Shown here in pieces: positions 466 through 11,872 of a stretch of DNA of 12,173 nucleotides (position 1 is the stretch's first letter; each line of letters opens with the position of its first letter). The notes beneath the pieces are model-generated. The model worked only from the letters and a program-made list of their open reading frames with translations. It was not told the origin of the DNA and ran no database searches. The DNA is taken from contig JAUXFG010000120.1 in NCBI GenBank assembly GCA_030620115.1, positions 1 to 12,173 on the forward strand, written 5' to 3'. The position numbers and the translations under genes are program-made. The stretch comes from Candidatus Fermentibacterota bacterium (lineage in GTDB: Bacteria; JAFGKV01).

Positions 466-550
466 AGCCCGCATTTCTCACCAGCTATCTACTACAGCGT
501 TACATTTGGCCCTGCCTGCTGCAGCCGAAGGTTGGTGAGAAGTCCGGGTT
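466..550 (-). repeat. MITE-like inverted-repeat element, short (internally deleted) copy
   Basis: This 85-bp element has 25-nt imperfect inverted ends, 466-490 (begins AGCCCGCATTTCTCACC) and 526-550 (ends GGTGAGAAGTCCGGGTT). Its first 57 nt (466-522) align without gaps to the reverse complement of 5328-5384 of the longer element, 43 of 57 identical by hand count, including a perfect 15-nt block GGCCCTGCCTGCTGC (508-522). It then jumps directly to the other end sequence. It therefore looks like an internally deleted relative of the 181-bp copy, in the opposite orientation. A further partial copy of its left end (GCCCGCATTTC, 440-450) lies just outside. It sits between two minus-strand genes, and its right end overlaps the TAA stop (551-549) of the GGDEF gene. 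As RNA it would fold into a long hairpin and could affect 3' ends. No transposase is present. Confidence 0.7.
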
Positions 551-3500
551 ACGGTTCGGTCAAGGATATGTTCGCAGATTCACCCAATACCCTCTCCTTC
601 CATCTCCTCGCATGAAGGTATTCGAATATGCTCCTTGCTTTGGCGAACGACTCCTTGGCATCATCTATTTCGGTTTTCTCCTTAAACATCAAGCCTTGAT
701 AATAATGGCTTTTCCCAAGTTCGATTTGCCACTTCAACCCCTGAAGGATAGAGATTGACTGCTCAAAAGAAGATCTCGCCCGATCCCACTCCTTCTCTTG
801 TGTGTAGACGCGCCCTGATAGACAGAGGGCTCTTGCCGTGATCTCCCTTGAGTTGAGTTCTTCGGCAAAGCGAAGAACCAGATCATGTATTGCGCGTGCC
901 TCCTTGTAGTTGCCCTCGATCAAATACAGTGATGCAAGGCCCAGAGAGACTTCAAGCAGAAGCGGTTTCGATTCGACTTCGCGGGCCATCGAATGAGCCT
1001 CATCAAGATATCCCTTTGCACTCGCAAGATCATTCGTTTCAACACATAGAAACCCGATGCTGAGAAGGCCCTCTATCTCTGTTTGACGGTCACCGATGTC
1101 CTTTGATATGTTCAAGCACCTCTTGAAACACTCCATGGCCAGCGAGTATTTGCCTGTGATTCCATGGATGATCCCGATGTTATTGAGGTTCAACGCCTCA
1201 ACCTTGGGAGTTCCGATCTCTCTCGTAATCTTCAATGATTTCTCATGGCACTCCAAGGCCCTGGAGTATTCTCCAAGGTGGGCATAGAGGATGCCGATGT
1301 TATTGAGAGCGCTTGTCTGAACTCCTCGTTCACCGATCTCTGCTGATATCTCCAATGAGTTCTTCAAATGCTCGAGGGCCTCAGGATATTCGCCAAGACT
1401 CTGGCAAATGAGTGCTATATTGCTATGACCCCTTCCTTCGCCCTGACGATCGCCGATTTCTCTCATTATCTCTAATGCATCGCTGTAATACTCAAAGGCC
1501 TTAGAGTATTCGCCAAGGCTCCAATAGACAATCGCGATATTTCCTATGCACTTCGCTTCAAGTTCCCTGTCACCAGTCTCATGAGAGATTCTTAATGAGC
1601 TTCGATAGAACTTCAATGCGACCTGGTATTCACCAAGGAACCAATGCGCATTGCCGATATTATTGAGGCAGTCTGCCTGACTGTTACTATCTCCCAATGC
1701 CCGATACATCTCAAGCGCTACCTCTGCCTCTCCTATGGCGTCATGATAACGATCTGTATGGAGGTAATTCTTGCAGAGCTCAAGAAGACAATCAGCCTTG
1801 GATTTCCTATCACCTGACGCTTTCGCTTTGACAATCCCCTTTTCCAAGTCGTCTGCCGCCTTCTCGAATTCGCCAACGAGACTCAGTACCTCTGACCGCT
1901 TCTTGAGACACACAATTCCTCTTGCCCCATTGGCCTCAGATGCCTCATCCTCAAGGCATTCAATCGCCCGCGTGTAGAATCTTATGGCGTCCTGGTTTGC
2001 ATAGACAGCTTTGGCTCTGTCACCGGCAACTATGCTATATTCAATCGCCCGTTGGCGATCTTCACCAAGAAAGAAATGGAGGGAGAGCTCCTCAACCACA
2101 TTTTCTACGTGACCTTCATGAAGCGATAGCAATTCATTGCCTAGCATCCGATGATAATGCCTTGACTTGGCTTTCCCCATCTTCGAATAGACTATCTCTC
2201 TTATGATATCCTCATTGAAGTAATAAGAGCCCTCACTGTTTTCTTTCAATAACCTGCTTTCCATTATTTCATCCATCAGATCGAGGAGATGCCCCTCATT
2301 CATTCTCGTGATGTTCTTCAGCAAGGTGAAATCAAACGCCCTGCCAATGACTGCCGCATGCTCCATTACATTCCGAGCATCGCTGTTCATCATATCCAGT
2401 TTCTGCGCAACGACACTCTCGATAGAATGTGGAATAGTCACCGCCGTATTGTCATCGAAGGCCCATCTATCATCAACCCAGGTGAGGGCGGCGTCCCTCT
2501 CTATAGATTTCATTATTTCCTCAATGAAGAGAGGATTCCCGCCGGTCTCCCTGACAACATAATCAATCAGTTCTCGAGGAGGGCTATCATCTATAATTAA
2601 TGCAATCATCTTTGCTACATCACTGCTTTCAAGAGGCTCAATTGTTATCATCTCGTATAGGCCTTCACGCGCCATTAGATGCAACGTCCTCTCGAAAAGG
2701 CTATCTTTGGATTCCTCCACACGATAGGCAAAGAAGAAGAAGATGGGGAAATCTCTCAGCGTCCTGAGCAAATAGTGCAAGAGCTCCAAGGAGCCATCAT
2801 CCGCCCATTGAATATTGTCAAAGAATACAAGCATGGGGCTCGACCGAACACACTGGGTGAGGAGTTCCTTTACTCCCTCGAATAGCCGGTACTTATCAAC
2901 CATGAAAGCATGCTTCTCACGGTCATTCGTCTCAGTGGATAACTCAGGTGCTATCTTTGAGAGTTCGATTTGATATGACTTCCCAATCTGCTTGACACTT
3001 CGTTTCCCCTCTTCATTGATCACGCTCCTGATAATCTCCCTAAAAGGATAATAGGGAATTGAACGAGTCGTCGCTGACAGATTGCTACTGAAGAAACGAA
3101 ATGAAGGGGAACCAGGTTGCCTTGCGGACTCATGAACCAATCTCGTCTTGCCCACACCAATTTCGCCACTGATGCATGCAGCACCGCCCCTACCTTGGGA
3201 TATCCGCCGGGTGGATTCCCTTATTATTCCAAGCTCGGCATCCCGCCCTACGATCTCCTCAGTCGGGATGGCCAGTTCCCTACCCCCTCTGGCAAAAAGG
3301 CCAATTCGATCTCTGCCATGCCTCTTCGCACTGTAGAGGTTTCGATCAGCGATCTGAAAGAGCGCCGGCCAGTCCCTCCCATCCTTGGGATATGAAGCAA
3401 TGCCAACGCTCATGGTGAGTGTCACACGAGCGAACTCTTCGATCCGGCATCGTTCCACTGAACGCTGAGAAATCCTTGCGGCGCGCTCGTATTCAGTATT

Positions 3501-3785
3501 TGGGAAGATACAGACGAATTCATCGCCACCATAGCGAGATACTGTGTCGTCTTGTCTTAATGTCCTCTTGAGGAAATCGGCAAACTCCTTAAGAACATCA
3601 TCACCCCTAATATGGCCATAGGTGTCGTTTACGTTCTTGAAATAATCCAGATCGATCAGCACTATAGACAGAGGTCTATTACTTTCGAGAGCATCCTCAA
3701 TCTCTTCCGGGACTCTTTGATTGAGATAACGCCGATTATGGAGACCGGTCAAATCATCAATATATTCTCTTCCAATCTCGGCCAT
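549..3785 (-). CDS. GGDEF diguanylate cyclase fused to STAND/AAA-type ATPase and TPR array
   Basis: 1078 residues, no signal peptide or membrane segment, so probably cytoplasmic. Residues 8-165 are a GGDEF domain with an intact signature RYGGDEF (84-90) and a product-inhibition I-site RxxD (77-80) exactly five residues before it, so it should make cyclic di-GMP from GTP and be feedback-inhibited. Residues 176-430 form an ATPase of the kind found in STAND regulators and in ATPase-coupled adenylate cyclases: Walker A GEIGVGKT (207-214) and Walker B LVFFDN (319-324, Asp323) followed by QWAD. Residues 450-570 look like the helical/winged part after the NTPase. From about 575 to 1055 are TPR repeats with an exact 40-residue period in the centre (IGDR-type motifs at 657, 697, 737, 777, 817, 857, 897). 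The ATG has a GGAGAAGG ribosome site just upstream and begins directly before the GGDEF fold. A likely role is a switch in which TPR-ligand binding and ATP hydrolysis control the cyclase; ligand and partner are unknown. Confidence 0.9.
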   Translation of the reverse strand: MAEIGREYIDDLTGLHNRRYLNQRVPEEIEDALESNRPLSIVLIDLDYFKNVNDTYGHIRGDDVLKEFADFLKRTLRQDDTVSRYGGDEFVCIFPNTEYERAARISQRSVERCRIEEFARVTLTMSVGIASYPKDGRDWPALFQIADRNLYSAKRHGRDRIGLFARGGRELAIPTEEIVGRDAELGIIRESTRRISQGRGGAACISGEIGVGKTRLVHESARQPGSPSFRFFSSNLSATTRSIPYYPFREIIRSVINEEGKRSVKQIGKSYQIELSKIAPELSTETNDREKHAFMVDKYRLFEGVKELLTQCVRSSPMLVFFDNIQWADDGSLELLHYLLRTLRDFPIFFFFAYRVEESKDSLFERTLHLMAREGLYEMITIEPLESSDVAKMIALIIDDSPPRELIDYVVRETGGNPLFIEEIMKSIERDAALTWVDDRWAFDDNTAVTIPHSIESVVAQKLDMMNSDARNVMEHAAVIGRAFDFTLLKNITRMNEGHLLDLMDEIMESRLLKENSEGSYYFNEDIIREIVYSKMGKAKSRHYHRMLGNELLSLHEGHVENVVEELSLHFFLGEDRQRAIEYSIVAGDRAKAVYANQDAIRFYTRAIECLEDEASEANGARGIVCLKKRSEVLSLVGEFEKAADDLEKGIVKAKASGDRKSKADCLLELCKNYLHTDRYHDAIGEAEVALEMYRALGDSNSQADCLNNIGNAHWFLGEYQVALKFYRSSLRISHETGDRELEAKCIGNIAIVYWSLGEYSKAFEYYSDALEIMREIGDRQGEGRGHSNIALICQSLGEYPEALEHLKNSLEISAEIGERGVQTSALNNIGILYAHLGEYSRALECHEKSLKITREIGTPKVEALNLNNIGIIHGITGKYSLAMECFKRCLNISKDIGDRQTEIEGLLSIGFLCVETNDLASAKGYLDEAHSMAREVESKPLLLEVSLGLASLYLIEGNYKEARAIHDLVLRFAEELNSREITARALCLSGRVYTQEKEWDRARSSFEQSISILQGLKWQIELGKSHYYQGLMFKEKTEIDDAKESFAKARSIFEYLHARRWKERVLGESANISLTEP
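966..1865 (-). repeat. Degenerate 120-bp tandem repeats encoding TPR motifs
   Basis: Within the GGDEF-ATPase-TPR gene the sequence repeats with a 120-bp period. On the plus strand, variants of CACCGATCTCT followed about 60 nt later by GAGTATTCGCCAAG recur near 1090, 1210, 1330, 1450, 1570 and 1690. At protein level each unit reads like LGEYSxALE...SLxIxxEIGDR...LNNIGxxY, the helix pair of a TPR of the 40-residue kinesin-light-chain/LGN-like type. The conserved DNA register suggests growth by tandem duplication. Repeats towards both ends are more diverged and less regular in length. Confidence 0.8.
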
Positions 3786-5897: not shown

Positions 5898-5996
5898 GGA
5901 GAAACAGAAAACTGACGAGAGATCCGCGCTTCATATATGGCGAAGATGGAACGTCAAGGATGTGAAGTTATTTCTGCGCGAACCCAAGGAGGCACC

Positions 5997-8900
5997 ATGA
6001 GCAGATCAGTTCTTGCTCCACTTGCGCTCTGTTTTCTTGCCTGTTTGACCGGCCTTTCCATTTCCGCCCTGCCCGAAGAGGGAGTGCTCGACCCAGCCGT
6101 AGTCCGGCCCGCGCCATATGGCGCCACCGCTGAGGTGCTCTCTTCATCTCCCACTTCCGTGCTGCTCGAGGTCTCTGTCACAGTGACGGATCGAGACCAA
6201 CTTCCGAGCCAGGACGCTGTCAGCATTGGCCTCGTAGCCATCTCACCACAAGGCAATGTTCAAGCATCCTTGATCCAGGCGGAAGTCTCCCCGGTCCAAG
6301 ACCCCAAAACCACAATCACAGTGGAGCCCGCCAAGCTGCCTCGCGCCTCTGTGATTCTCGGCGCCCCTGCTATTTGGAGAGACCTCCGAGTGGTCGACGT
6401 ATCGGTTGCTCCCTGTTGGGAAACCTCAGACGGCGCCGCAATTGCACACCGCCTACTCATCGAGATCACGAACCTGGGCGGCGTCGGGATCAACGAAAAA
6501 GCGAGTCCCATGCGACCCGTTTCACCCATATGGGACAGGATGTATCGGCGACATGTACTCAACTATGATTCCCTCAACCTCTCTCGGCTTCAACGTGGCA
6601 CGGGCAAACGGTACATCGTGATATCTCGTACCGCCTTCGATGCACAGACACCGCAGTTCGTGGAATGGAAGACACGTCAGGGCTATGGGGTTGATCTTGT
6701 GACCTTGGAGAGCCTTGGGCATGCGCATCATCCCACCAGTTCCGACGCCATGGATGCCATGAAGGACTATATCCTCGATGCATACAATAACTGGCCTGAA
6801 ACTCCTGAGTTTGTCCTTCTTGTGGGCGATATGGATAGCGGCAACCTGTCGGGTTCGCTCTGGACCAAGACCTTCTATAATGCCTTCTATAGTCAAGGAT
6901 ATCGGCCGCATGATCAGTGGTATGCATTTCTCGAGGGAGATGATCTGTTCGCGGACATCATGGTCGGCCGTTTCCCAGACTGGAATGCAACCAGGATGGA
7001 CTACCAGCTTGCGAAGACCATTGCGTACGAGAAAACGCCCCACATCGAGAGCGAGAATGCATGGCAAAAACGTGGCATAATGACCTTGGATTCCAGCATC
7101 TCGGCGACCATCAACACGAAAAACGCCGTGAGTGATCATCTCAACAGTTGGGGCATGAATATATCCGAGTTCTTCTCGTCTCCGTGGAATGTGACTGCCA
7201 CCATGAGCACTGGATTCACATTCTACAACTACCGAGGCGACTACTGCAGCTCCACAGGATGGGGATCCACGTTCTACGATAATGATGTGCCATATGTCAA
7301 TAATCAGAATAAGCCCGGCGTATTCACCATCCTTAGCTGTTCATCCGCGTGCTTTGACTATGGTTATAGCAGCACGGCCGAGCTCCTCCTGCGGCACGAC
7401 TATTCCAATCCCTCCATTTTCAAAGGCGCGGTTGCCTTCGTCGGCTCTCAGGCATACACGGCGTACCAGTGGAACAACCCTCTTGACAAGGGCTTCTACT
7501 ACGCATGGGCCGATTCCAACAAGGCCATCCTGGGCGAGGCCCTCCTATCCGCTAAGATCTATGCTTGGAACAACTCCCCGCACGGGACTACGGGTGAGTG
7601 GAATAGGCGCAACTGCATGATGAAGGAGTACACGATCCTTGGCGACCCCTCACTCCAGGTTTGGACGGACGTGCCAGAAGAGATGACCGTAGCCGCTACG
7701 CCCTCGACTGTCCCCATGAACCAAACCACCAACGTAACGGTCTCTGTGACAACGCCCACCCGAGGCCCTGTGGCTGGTGCTCTGGTCTGTTTCAGGCGAG
7801 ATCCTGATGTGTTTGTCTATGGTTATGCCGACGCCTCCGGGGAGGTTGTGCTTGCTGTTACACCAGCAACAGAAGGCGCCATCGATCTTACCGCCACTGC
7901 ATATAACAATATCCCGGTGTTGGACAGCATCACCGCTACCCCGGGCGAAGGGCCCTACGTAGTCTATATGGGGAACACGATCCTGGGAGATGGCCAGGCG
8001 GACATCGACGATGATGTCTCATTGGACATCGAACTCAAGAATATGGGAACCGGGACCGCGTATGCGGTGCAGGCTTCTCTGAGCACGACTGAGGCCCAGG
8101 TGGTGGTCACCGGACAAGTTCGGGACTACGGGGCCATCGCCCCCGGCAGCACGGCGCTGCCTGCATCACCATTCGAGTTCCATGTCGGCACGCTGCCCGA
8201 TCAGACCGTAGTGCCGTTTGACCTCGACATCGTTTCAGGTGATTCTCTATGGGAGGCAAGCTTCGGCATCACGATCCATGCGCCGGTGCTTGCCGTTGCG
8301 GGCTCCCAGGTGAATGATCACGCAGGAAACGGAAACGGGCGCCCCGATCCTGGAGAGACCATCGAACTGAAGGTGCTCGTTGACAACAGCGGTTCCGGCA
8401 CAGCCCTGAACACTCAAATTACACTGAGCGACACCGATCCATATGTCACCATATCGGGTCCCACTACTCAGAGTATGGGGCAGATTCCGCCCAGTTCACA
8501 GGAACTGAGCCCGAGCTTCACTGTTTCGTTTGATGCAGCCTGTCCACCCGCGTATTCGGCACAGATCCCTGTTCAGCTTGTGTCGCATGATGGAGCATAT
8601 GCCGCATACGATACTCTGATATTGATGGTTGGCCAATATGATCTGCTGTTTGTAGACGCGGATAACGAGCCCACGGAGACACGGATTAGCTCAGCACTGG
8701 ATGATCTCGGCATCACCTACACCCGGTGGAATACCTATGTGCTGGGTATGGAGGTTGTTCCCACGGACACGCTCGTGAAGTACAAGACAGTACTGTGGGC
8801 CGCGGGCGATCAGAATATCTCGAGCATCATCGCCGCCAACCAGACGACCTTGGCTTCGTATCTTGATCAGGGAGGCTCCCTGGTGCTCTCAGCCGAAAAC

Positions 8901-9578
8901 TATTTGACTGAGTATGGCGAGGCCTCGTTCACATCGGACTACCTCCATGTGGCGTCATATCAGACCAGCATCTCCGGTACAGGCGTGAATGGTGTTCCAG
9001 GTGATGAAGTGAGCGATGGTCTTTCAGTCGCATTGAGCTATCATACGGAGCTCGGTGACTGGCCCGACCGGATCGATCCCGACGGAGATGCAACAGTGGT
9101 GTTTCATATGCAGGGGGTGGAGGCCAAGCCTGTGGCTATTCGCTATCCCGACAGCGAAGCGGGAGCGTACCGCGTGATCTTCTACGCTGTCTCGCTCGAG
9201 GCCTTCTCCGCGTCAGGGGGTGATCCGAACAATATCAAGACAGTGATAAACCGGTCTCTGGCCTGGGTGGGCGGCGGCGACATGCTGCCGCCGACTGCGC
9301 CGACAAATCCGGCCTTCACGCCTGATGGCACGCTAAGCTGGAATCCTGCGTCCGACAACGTTGGTGTGGATCACTACCTCATCTATCGCGATACAGTGGC
9401 GTACTTCACCATCCAGGGTATGACGCCGCATACCACAACGCCGGGAACAAGCATAACACTCCCCGAGGGTATCGGTGACCCCGAGGTGAATTACTGCTTC
9501 CGGGTTACGGCTAAGGATGCCGCTGGTAACGAGTCGGAACCGACGTCTACCGTCGGTGGGCATGATTTCGGGACTTAG
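5997..9578 (+). CDS. Secreted C25 (gingipain-family) cysteine peptidase-like protein with CARDB-like and FN3 domains
   Basis: 1193 residues from ATG 5997, chosen because AAGGAGG (5986-5992) stands 4 nt upstream and a signal peptide begins there (MSRSVLAPLALCFLACLTG, cleavage likely after SISA); an ATG at 5937 would bury the signal. Residues about 25-200 resemble the gingipain propeptide/Ig region. Residues 205-557 are the C25 domain: KRYIVISRTAF, EFVLLVGD, DIMVGRFP, the FYNYRG block, TILSCSSACFDYG with candidate nucleophile Cys448, GAVAFVGS and ILGDPSLQVW. Where gingipains have the GHG histidine this protein has G-D-Y (Asp415), so activity is uncertain. Beta-sandwich domains follow (about 560-650; 655-765; 765-875, the last two CARDB-like with DxxGNGNGRPDPGE), then an alpha/beta domain (880-1095, YDLLFVDADN...SYLDQGGSLVLSAENY) and a fibronectin type III domain (about 1098-1185). 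No recognisable C-terminal sorting domain. Probably a surface or secreted protein acting on or binding extracellular protein. Confidence 0.88.
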   Translation: MSRSVLAPLALCFLACLTGLSISALPEEGVLDPAVVRPAPYGATAEVLSSSPTSVLLEVSVTVTDRDQLPSQDAVSIGLVAISPQGNVQASLIQAEVSPVQDPKTTITVEPAKLPRASVILGAPAIWRDLRVVDVSVAPCWETSDGAAIAHRLLIEITNLGGVGINEKASPMRPVSPIWDRMYRRHVLNYDSLNLSRLQRGTGKRYIVISRTAFDAQTPQFVEWKTRQGYGVDLVTLESLGHAHHPTSSDAMDAMKDYILDAYNNWPETPEFVLLVGDMDSGNLSGSLWTKTFYNAFYSQGYRPHDQWYAFLEGDDLFADIMVGRFPDWNATRMDYQLAKTIAYEKTPHIESENAWQKRGIMTLDSSISATINTKNAVSDHLNSWGMNISEFFSSPWNVTATMSTGFTFYNYRGDYCSSTGWGSTFYDNDVPYVNNQNKPGVFTILSCSSACFDYGYSSTAELLLRHDYSNPSIFKGAVAFVGSQAYTAYQWNNPLDKGFYYAWADSNKAILGEALLSAKIYAWNNSPHGTTGEWNRRNCMMKEYTILGDPSLQVWTDVPEEMTVAATPSTVPMNQTTNVTVSVTTPTRGPVAGALVCFRRDPDVFVYGYADASGEVVLAVTPATEGAIDLTATAYNNIPVLDSITATPGEGPYVVYMGNTILGDGQADIDDDVSLDIELKNMGTGTAYAVQASLSTTEAQVVVTGQVRDYGAIAPGSTALPASPFEFHVGTLPDQTVVPFDLDIVSGDSLWEASFGITIHAPVLAVAGSQVNDHAGNGNGRPDPGETIELKVLVDNSGSGTALNTQITLSDTDPYVTISGPTTQSMGQIPPSSQELSPSFTVSFDAACPPAYSAQIPVQLVSHDGAYAAYDTLILMVGQYDLLFVDADNEPTETRISSALDDLGITYTRWNTYVLGMEVVPTDTLVKYKTVLWAAGDQNISSIIAANQTTLASYLDQGGSLVLSAENYLTEYGEASFTSDYLHVASYQTSISGTGVNGVPGDEVSDGLSVALSYHTELGDWPDRIDPDGDATVVFHMQGVEAKPVAIRYPDSEAGAYRVIFYAVSLEAFSASGGDPNNIKTVINRSLAWVGGGDMLPPTAPTNPAFTPDGTLSWNPASDNVGVDHYLIYRDTVAYFTIQGMTPHTTTPGTSITLPEGIGDPEVNYCFRVTAKDAAGNESEPTSTVGGHDFGT

Positions 9579-9671: not shown

Positions 9672-10268
9672 TTACTGGATTTCGACGGTCTCTTCCTCCT
9701 CGGCTCTCTTGCTCCGCACAGCTTTGACCACGAGGTACACGCCGAGACCAAGCACTGCCAGCGGCCACCATTCCTCTAACCACTCCATGGAGACGTCGAA
9801 CTTTGTGTGCAGGAAAATGAGCCCACCCATCACGATGAGGACGATGCCGCCAGCCAATGACCCGGCCATGCCCGGCATCTTGAATCCTTCAGGCAATTCG
9901 ACAATCTCGCCATCCTCAAGAATCTGGTTGTAGAGCTTGGCCCGCCTGACCGCATCGATGATGTTGTAGAGCCAGAAAAAGGAAAGAAAAAAGCCCAGCA
10001 GCGGCTCCAGGCTTCCCACGCCGGAAGCCAGGGCGGTGATAATGAATGCCACCACCGCCACATAGATGAATCCATGCTGGTAATAGCCAACATAGATCTG
10101 TCCAAGACCAGGCATGCAGGACAGGAAACCTGCCAAGGACGGCGATCGATACGATCCTCGATATGCAGGACGCTGTCGTTTGGGTTGAGCGGTCTCATCA
10201 TGCACCGGCGCGCGTTCGGTCAAACGCTCCTCTCCGGCGCGAGGGCCCATCTCATCTTGGGTACTCAT
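9672..10268 (-). CDS. Membrane protein with TM2-like and LiaF/DUF5668-like transmembrane regions
   Basis: 198 residues from the ATG at 10268, preceded by GAGGAGG 8 nt upstream; an in-frame ATG 13 codons earlier lacks such a site. Residues 1-42 are polar and charged. SPSLAGFLSCMPGLGQIYVG (42-61) is the TM2-type motif (P-G-L-G-Q-I-Y), followed by two hydrophobic segments (about 66-83 and 88-103) with DAVRRAKLYN. The second half has SLAGGIVLIVMGGLIFL (137-153) and EWWPLAVLGLGVYLVVKAVRSKR (167-189), the paired-helix pattern with central W-P-L seen in LiaI/LiaF-like and DUF5668 proteins. The tail is acidic. It is the last gene of a sigma/anti-sigma unit, 87 bp after the anti-sigma stop, so it is probably an envelope protein controlled by or assisting that system. 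Exact function unknown. Confidence 0.82.
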   Translation of the reverse strand: MSTQDEMGPRAGEERLTERAPVHDETAQPKRQRPAYRGSYRSPSLAGFLSCMPGLGQIYVGYYQHGFIYVAVVAFIITALASGVGSLEPLLGFFLSFFWLYNIIDAVRRAKLYNQILEDGEIVELPEGFKMPGMAGSLAGGIVLIVMGGLIFLHTKFDVSMEWLEEWWPLAVLGLGVYLVVKAVRSKRAEEEETVEIQ

Positions 10269-10355
10269 GGTTGGTTCCTCCTCGAAAGAATGAGTCAAAT
10301 TCATCATGTGTTGCGTTACGTAATCACCGAAGGACGCGAGCGGGAGTGGGAAAGC

Positions 10356-11306
10356 TCAACCCGCAGTGCCGTGGCGGTCCTCATCTCCACGGTCACCACC
10401 TCGCCACAACTGTTTCAGATCATTTCCCATCTCGCCGAGGTGCAATGTCGCGCGGAGAAACTCCCGGTTGCCCATGTCTTGGATGAAAGCACGGCCATGC
10501 ATCCGGAGAGCAACGGTGGCCACAGAGAAACGATCCCGTACGGCACCGAGTCGACCTAGGATGCCACGAGTCTTAGAAGCAACACTACCCCCCGTTGCCG
10601 ACCAGACATCCTCAGCCAGGGTTGTGACACGGTGCTGTGCCACTTCGAGTGGCACAGAGCTCTCTCTCTGGAGAGCAATGAGTCCCGACTGGGCAAAAAC
10701 CCGCGCCTGGACCACCACGGTGTGAAGAATCGGCCCCGGGGTCCCCATCATCGTCACCACGAGGAGCGCGCCCACATAGGCGGCTTCCCACTCGAAAAGA
10801 GGATTGGCCAGGGAACGCTCCCACCACTGCTTCAATCGAGCAAGCCAGGGAAATCTCTCGCGGCGTACTCCTCTCGTGGCTCTCACCACATCAGCCACGA
10901 ACCATGGATCGGGCTGCACCTCCCTCATCTCGCCCAACTCTGGCAGAAGCCATTGCAGCGTATCCGCCAGAAGCCGGCACTGGCTGCAATGGGCAAGATG
11001 CTCTTCGAGAAGCTCACGCTTAGGCGCCTCAAGGGAACCGTCCGTCCGGGCGCCCAGCAACTCATGGGCCCGCTTGCATGCGGAACCGGCCGTCCGTGCA
11101 ACAATGCGCCGAGTAAGAGACTCGCGTTCTTCCGTTGAGAGCACCTCTCGCTTACCGCGAACCACCTCCAGTAGATCACGGCAAGACAAACACCTCGAGA
11201 GATGTTGATCCATACGCCGTTGATCTTCGGAGGTGAGACGCCCCTCCAGGAAATCGGCGAGCCGCTCTCGCCATGCTTGGCATTCCCTCTGGTGTGGCGT
11301 GCTCAT
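10356..11306 (-). CDS. Anti-sigma factor with two tandem zinc-finger (ZAS/zf-HC2) modules and one membrane segment
   Basis: 316 residues. Two zinc-binding modules have the same spacing: Cys9-x25-His35-x3-Cys39-x2-Cys42 and Cys77-x25-His103-x3-Cys107-x2-Cys110, the H-x3-C-x2-C pattern of ZAS-type anti-sigma factors, which bind the ECF sigma in the cytoplasm. A hydrophobic segment (EAAYVGALLVVTMMG, about 174-194) probably crosses the inner membrane once. The C-terminal part (195-316) would then be outside; it is rich in basic and amphipathic helices with no domain I recognise. The start ATG overlaps the sigma TGA stop by four bases (ATGA), so the two are translationally coupled, as usual for such pairs. 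The likely role is to hold the sigma factor at the membrane until a signal releases it. The start Met-Ser-Thr-Pro-His fits this overlap and no other start is needed. Confidence 0.88.
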   Translation of the reverse strand: MSTPHQRECQAWRERLADFLEGRLTSEDQRRMDQHLSRCLSCRDLLEVVRGKREVLSTEERESLTRRIVARTAGSACKRAHELLGARTDGSLEAPKRELLEEHLAHCSQCRLLADTLQWLLPELGEMREVQPDPWFVADVVRATRGVRRERFPWLARLKQWWERSLANPLFEWEAAYVGALLVVTMMGTPGPILHTVVVQARVFAQSGLIALQRESSVPLEVAQHRVTTLAEDVWSATGGSVASKTRGILGRLGAVRDRFSVATVALRMHGRAFIQDMGNREFLRATLHLGEMGNDLKQLWRGGDRGDEDRHGTAG

Positions 11307-11872
11307 GGAGTCTCCGAGTCCGGTCGACTGGATAAGGCCAGCACTGCGCGAGCCAATTCGATCCGTGCCCTGTTCAGTCGTGACTTGATGGTCCCCACAG
11401 GTACCTTGAGCACCGAGGCCACCTCGGTGAGCTTCAGATCCTGGATATCCTTCAGCAGGATAACCTCGCGATTGATCCGGCTCAGCTCCTGCAACCCTTG
11501 ATGGATGAGCTGTTTCCGCGACTCCGCAGTAAAGCGTTCCTCCGGATCAGGGCCGTCGGACGCCAAGTCAAACATCTCATCCACCGGTGTGTCGTGCGCT
11601 GCCGGCCTCACCTTGCGTCGCCGGAGATGATCAACACAGACATTTCGGGCGATTCGAATCGTCCAAGGAAGGAATCGCTCAGGATCGCGGCAGGTACCCA
11701 GCTTCTGGTAGATCCGTATGAAGATGTCCTGGGCAAGATCCCTGGCCTCATCGGCATTCCCGACATAGCCGTACGCAAAGCCATAGATTCGTGATTGGTA
11801 GTTTCGCACCAGTACCTCCCACGCCAGCTTATCGCCTTCGAGACATCTTCCAACCAGCTCAGTGAGTTCCAT
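11303..11872 (-). CDS. ECF RNA polymerase sigma factor (RpoE-like)
   Basis: 189 residues, usual length for the group. Region 2: DEARDLAQDIFIRIYQKL (41-58) and FLPWTIRIARNVCVDHLRRRK (67-87), which hold core-binding and -10 recognition/melting positions. A short linker (88-120) contains DGPDPEER, frequent in ECF sigmas. Region 4 (about 125-172): LSRINREVILLKDIQDLKLTEVASVLKVPVGTIKSRLNRAR, a helix-turn-helix for the -35 element. The ATG at 11872 is the first possible start, because a TAG lies directly upstream in frame; the ribosome site is weak (AGGGTG). It directs polymerase to its own set of promoters and is first in an operon with its anti-sigma factor (4-bp overlap) and a small membrane protein. 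Self-activation is common in the family, but I see no clear GGAAC-type -35 box upstream. Confidence 0.93.
   Translation of the reverse strand: MELTELVGRCLEGDKLAWEVLVRNYQSRIYGFAYGYVGNADEARDLAQDIFIRIYQKLGTCRDPERFLPWTIRIARNVCVDHLRRRKVRPAAHDTPVDEMFDLASDGPDPEERFTAESRKQLIHQGLQELSRINREVILLKDIQDLKLTEVASVLKVPVGTIKSRLNRARIELARAVLALSSRPDSETP

Follow-up and report, generated by a model that had tools for sequence, protein, structure and literature searches.

The window analysed here, the whole stretch of 12,173 nucleotides, belongs to a 4.1 Mb draft genome (G000; 296 contigs, 19 C25 domains) and encodes on its forward strand a secreted C25-fold protein of 1193 amino acids (CDS 5997..9578, from the open reading frame list and its translation). 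The start ATG at 5997, from which residues of the window protein are numbered, and a putative signal peptide (~residues 1–24) were called by eye, and a second in-frame ATG of the same open frame lies at 5937. Elsewhere in the window, the reverse strand carries a fusion of GGDEF, AAA ATPase, and many TPR repeats (549–3785, 1078 aa) and, downstream of the C25 gene, consecutive genes (9672–11872) for an ECF sigma factor, an anti-sigma factor of the zinc-finger type, and a LiaF-like membrane protein.

The protein begins with a divergent N-terminal region akin to a C25 propeptide (6069..6599, forward strand), which stayed under threshold in the Pfam scan but was recovered by profile–profile comparison of the 180 N-terminal residues with the propeptides of four PF08126-matching C25 paralogues (hhalign, probability 97.4%, E 1.6e-11). 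It is followed by the C25 (gingipain-like) domain (6612..7658, forward strand; genome-scan entry G000:C49:6612-7658), whose match to PF01364 (E 2.7e-44, 152.4 bits against a cut-off of 23) places it in peptidase family C25 by homology. A well-predicted beta-rich region in model 1 then coincides with an Ig-like domain (7674..7934, forward strand), for which the Pfam match to Peptidase_C25_C, the C25 Ig domain, was sub-threshold (17.6 bits, cut-off 25); a weak Pfam match to CARDB was also found in the protein. The C-terminus is a fibronectin type III-like domain (9285..9554, forward strand) matching a chitinase A1 domain (1k85, E 3e-7). With its propeptide-like region, C25 domain, Ig-like domains, and FN3-like end, the protein looks exported. 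Across the genome, the type IX secretion tail PF18962 had 42 matches, 19 of them over the cut-off, and none at the window protein, which has the FN3-like end.

Among solved structures, the best profile match of the window protein was gingipain R (RgpB, E 3.3e-15). Two AlphaFold2 runs on shallow alignments (7 and 8 sequences, the window and related loci) gave models of low confidence (mean pLDDT 53 and 51), in which the gingipain fold was nevertheless recovered (Foldseek E 1.3e-18 to 1cvr; VIA Z 24.8 over 321 residues at rmsd 3.4). The models place residues 408–413 and 441–446 as strands that each end at an active-site position; both are too poor for side-chain distances such as Cys417–Cys448 to be read from them.

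Three profile and pairwise alignments put the window NYRG over RgpB NYTG and Cys448 (TGT, 7338..7340) over the nucleophile Cys244, so that the catalytic Cys of an active C25 peptidase is present; this position is Cys in 229/230 of the C25 domains surveyed below. In contrast, the catalytic His expected where strand beta 3 ends is missing, as the original prediction had proposed: nucleotides 7227–7262 read AAC TAC CGA GGC GAC TAC TGC AGC TCC ACA GGA TGG (NYRGDYCSSTGW), and under either of two alignments the position of RgpB His211 is held by Asp415 or Tyr416. The predicted nucleotides and residues were confirmed (GAC at 7239–7241, Cys448 TGT, 33 residues apart). A spacing of 33 is the commonest His–Cys distance in the family (47/143) but is weak evidence by itself, since the family range is 28–53. 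Cys417 (7245..7247) aligns with RgpB Gly212, the glycine right after the catalytic His. The S1 pocket of RgpB has Thr209 and Val242 at its base and Trp284 as cover, with the P1 Arg anchored by Asp163 (PMC9559808). By alignment, its base residue Thr209 is replaced by Arg413 (7233..7235), while the loops bearing Trp284 and Asp163 align poorly and Ala489 (7461..7463) falls near the lid residue Trp284.

The exact occupant of the His site depends on where a one-residue insertion after NYRG, common to the window and its closest relatives, is placed. Aligning the protein with C25 members thus upheld the absence of His, whereas Asp415 (7239..7241) as its exact replacement, also part of the original prediction, depends on the insertion: Asp415 occupies the site in one alignment, and in the other Tyr416 does, with Asp415 inside the insertion and the apparent exchange of Asp for His an alignment effect. 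The Tyr416 placement draws on MAFFT --auto, which aligns Tyr416 with the 143 His of the survey, and on aromatics being the commonest replacements of His, as in the NYRG[WYF] majority. Against it, the profile alignment to RgpB has E or D over His211, insertion-free sister domains (NYRGEGW, NYRGSGW) carry E or S directly after the motif, and E, S, or D stands there in 12/12 members of the clade that contains them (support 74). These sister domains favour Asp415 at the site, and we regard Tyr416 as the somewhat unlikely choice. The matter is one of alignment detail, compatible with the other explanations, and His is missing regardless.

Relatives with the same GDYC motif had been suggested as a check, and one was found: L053, a 67% identical homologue from another genus (Candidatus Fermentibacteria MAG Zod_Metabat.355; this locus seems to coincide with L033 of G001, same family and other genus), carries NYRGDYC with the codons of the window (AACTACCGAGGCGACTACTGC), including GAC for Asp415. 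Within the source genome itself, 6/19 C25 domains are His-less at this site, namely the window (D), L012 (E), L009 (S), L006 (G), L008 (F), and L011 (R). Neither a read error nor a recent mutation can account for a loss that own-genome paralogues and L053 share, and a point change from CAC to GAC, one of the predicted options, is contradicted both by the identical codons of L053 and by the depth of the loss in the tree. On these comparisons, the missing His is real and inherited. A dN/dS estimate was saturated and gave no usable value. A single-sequence scan of genome contigs returned no relatives, nor did two scans of viral contigs.

We then placed the window in a survey of 230 non-redundant C25 domains, drawn from its relatives and other genomes. 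His was present at the site in 143/230 and absent from 87/230, where it is replaced by W (29), Y (13), F (5), and also S, E, D, Q, and others. Arg two residues before the site was found in 79/87 His-less and 12/143 His-bearing domains (Fisher p 9e-39, a test that ignores kinship). In a tree computed without the His-site and Arg columns, 78/79 His-less Arg-bearing domains fell in one 83-member clade (SH-like support 85) from 19 genome families, which we name the YRG lineage, and within which the window is nested with supports of 94, 82, and 100. Since nearly all these domains share one clade, the loss of His together with Arg was, as far as the tree indicates, essentially one old event and not a repeated one. 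A repeated coupling of Arg gain and His loss was considered and rejected: with 9 and 6 changes on the tree, the two coincide essentially once, independent pairs are uninformative, and the Fisher value therefore reflects shared ancestry. Because Arg413 aligns with Thr209 and the vacated site with His211, the lineage alters the His and the S1 pocket base together. The nucleophile Cys is retained in 78/78 clade members, as in 143/143 His-bearing domains. The window, with no His, Arg at −2, Cys kept, and a position inside the clade, is a typical member in which Asp is a local variant. Neither the invariant Arg413 nor this lineage featured in the original prediction.

Two further features are frequent in the lineage. 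A THTxxNN loop in place of the RgpB lid loop brings His489 in 45/79 members (57%, vs ~1% of His-bearing domains), and a DH motif at 306–307 brings His307 in 40/79 (51% vs ~3%). Neither is present in the window or L033/L053: the window reads YTAYQWNN at the first motif, which is frequent and not defining, with NN kept and Ala489 in place of His. Other combinations occur across the survey. Arg and His stand together in L097, L026, L040, L042, and L043 (HRDHG) and in L132, L186, L207, L236, and L244 (YRGHG), which may represent an intermediate step with Arg preceding the loss of His. Asp at the His site is also found outside the YRG clade in L155 (G071, NFAGDGW), L184 (G137, LYSGDGD), and L190 (G101, NYCGDGS), which lack Arg413 and keep Cys and are thus separate His-to-Asp cases; the DH motif recurs in L155 and L184. 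L185 (G104:C77:5848-6786), with Pro at the His site and Ala at the Cys site, is the sole clear double-loss pseudo-peptidase among the 230 and the one domain without Cys, and falls outside the YRG clade. C25 repertoires can be very large, with 19 (G000), 23 (G001), and 27 (G274) domains, sometimes several per contig. For the 16 genomes with the fullest C25 sampling, 58/173 domains were His-less and 51/58 of these had the S1-pocket Arg, rough figures in that the sample was taken mainly with the Pfam model, score-ranked, and partly via a His-less profile.

The immediate relatives of the window form a seven-member subclade (window, L053/L033, L009, L054 (= L060), L012, L035, and L036), in all of which His is absent at the site, and whose hallmarks are D, E, or S after NYRG with the one-residue insertion, and Cys at 417. 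Cys417 is found in 7/7 members but in 9% of the YRG class and 0% of His-bearing domains, and together with Cys448 it forms the only pair of invariant Cys in the subclade. The proposed disulphide between Cys417 and Cys452 (7350..7352) is rejected, because Cys452 occurs in the window protein alone and is missing from all six nearest relatives, whereas Cys417 is present in all seven. Judged by conservation, the most likely disulphide pair would instead be Cys417 with Cys448, a redox or metal pair being less likely. Another conserved His serving as base in this subclade was ruled out, as no His of the C25 domain is invariant among its six full-length members.

Taken together, these observations lead us to consider that the YRG-type His-less domain of the window is, on balance, probably a binding or structural module and not a gingipain-type peptidase, with a pocket perhaps capped by Cys417 and Cys448. 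Its lineage is an old one in which the catalytic His has been lost, an invariant Arg precedes the vacated site by two residues, and the nucleophile is retained as Cys. Without the His, a Cys–His dyad could not form and the domain would not act as a gingipain-type peptidase, while Arg413, at the floor of the former S1 pocket, would mean that a P1 arginine is no longer accepted. In the window subclade, the Cys417–Cys448 pair would then cap the former active site, and the domain would most likely work outside the cell as a module for binding or structure that displays its rebuilt pocket. From the missing His and the charged Arg in the S1 floor, we infer that the canonical Arg-specific mechanism is ruled out. 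Against the module reading stands the strictness of Cys448, which is as complete in the lineage as in His-bearing domains and would be unusual without cysteine chemistry.

This strict retention is the main argument for the alternative, which we hold to be unlikely, that the lineage is still enzymatic, with Cys448 activated without His211 in a peptidase or transpeptidase of other specificity. The Cys448 thiolate could be stabilised by the invariant Arg413, or a relocated His, either His489 of the THTxxNN loop or His307 of the DH motif, could serve as activator. Consistent with such chemistry, the G-x-F context after Cys is kept, His is enriched at those two positions in this lineage only, and a propeptide is retained by the YRG member L008 and, in divergent form, by the window. 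However, both His are missing from 22/79 members, the window and L033 among them, so neither can be a strict catalytic base; moreover, YRG members have no known activity, and profile searches found none of them among solved structures. More doubtful still is the extension of this idea, that the lineage represents a second catalytic class in the gingipain fold, with an Arg-activated thiolate, often joined by a His at the S1 lid, and non-gingipain chemistry or specificity. The original choice between a pseudo-peptidase and use of another base thus stands as a fair pair, its premise of an absent canonical His having been borne out. Finally, it is highly improbable that the gene is a decaying pseudogene or that the missing His stems from an error in sequencing or assembly: the window does sit in a fragmented draft genome, but its 1193-codon frame is open, the protein is conserved in five relatives, the NYRGDYC codons recur in an independent MAG, and five own-genome paralogues are likewise His-less.

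The reading as a binding or structural module bears on how C25 genes are counted. Environmental genomics tallies them as gingipain-like, Arg-specific secreted peptidases, and in White Oak River sediment C25 made up 41–45% of signal-peptide-bearing peptidases and was tied to the hydrolysis of Arg substrates (PMC6752024). If it is true that YRG domains are not Arg-specific peptidases, counts based on C25 overstate peptidase potential. Many “gingipain-like peptidase” annotations probably cover proteins that do not work like gingipain. A Cys strictly kept without His across one lineage also makes the choice between pseudo-enzyme and new chemistry directly testable.

Among known systems, gingipains R and K (family C25, clan CD) share with the window protein the fold (VIA Z 24.8, 24.4, and 22.4, for a low-confidence model), the domain order of propeptide, C25, and Ig, and a Cys ending strand beta 4, and match it significantly at the level of sequence profiles, but the window lacks the catalytic His, has Arg for Thr209 and a replaced lid Trp284 region, and adds Cys417. 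PorU, the C25 sortase of type IX secretion, is weakly matched by the YRG lineage in profile searches (6za2, E 5e-7), and the window scores 35 bits to NF033707, far under the family cut-off of 420. No description of a His-less Arg-bearing C25 lineage was found in a literature search that covered mainly freely accessible papers, and no such branch was found among solved structures. The nearest parallel is provided by the pseudo-orthocaspases (clan CD, C14B), a widespread bacterial lineage in which the canonical dyad is likewise lost lineage-wide (PMC6426788). In these, both dyad residues are gone (Tyr/Ser for His and Cys), and the cyanobacterial members retain an acidic specificity pocket (PMC6426788), whereas the YRG lineage keeps its Cys and places an Arg into the pocket. 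Overall, the C25 fold and family are already known, and it is the His-less, Arg-bearing, Cys-keeping branch that appears to be the new part.
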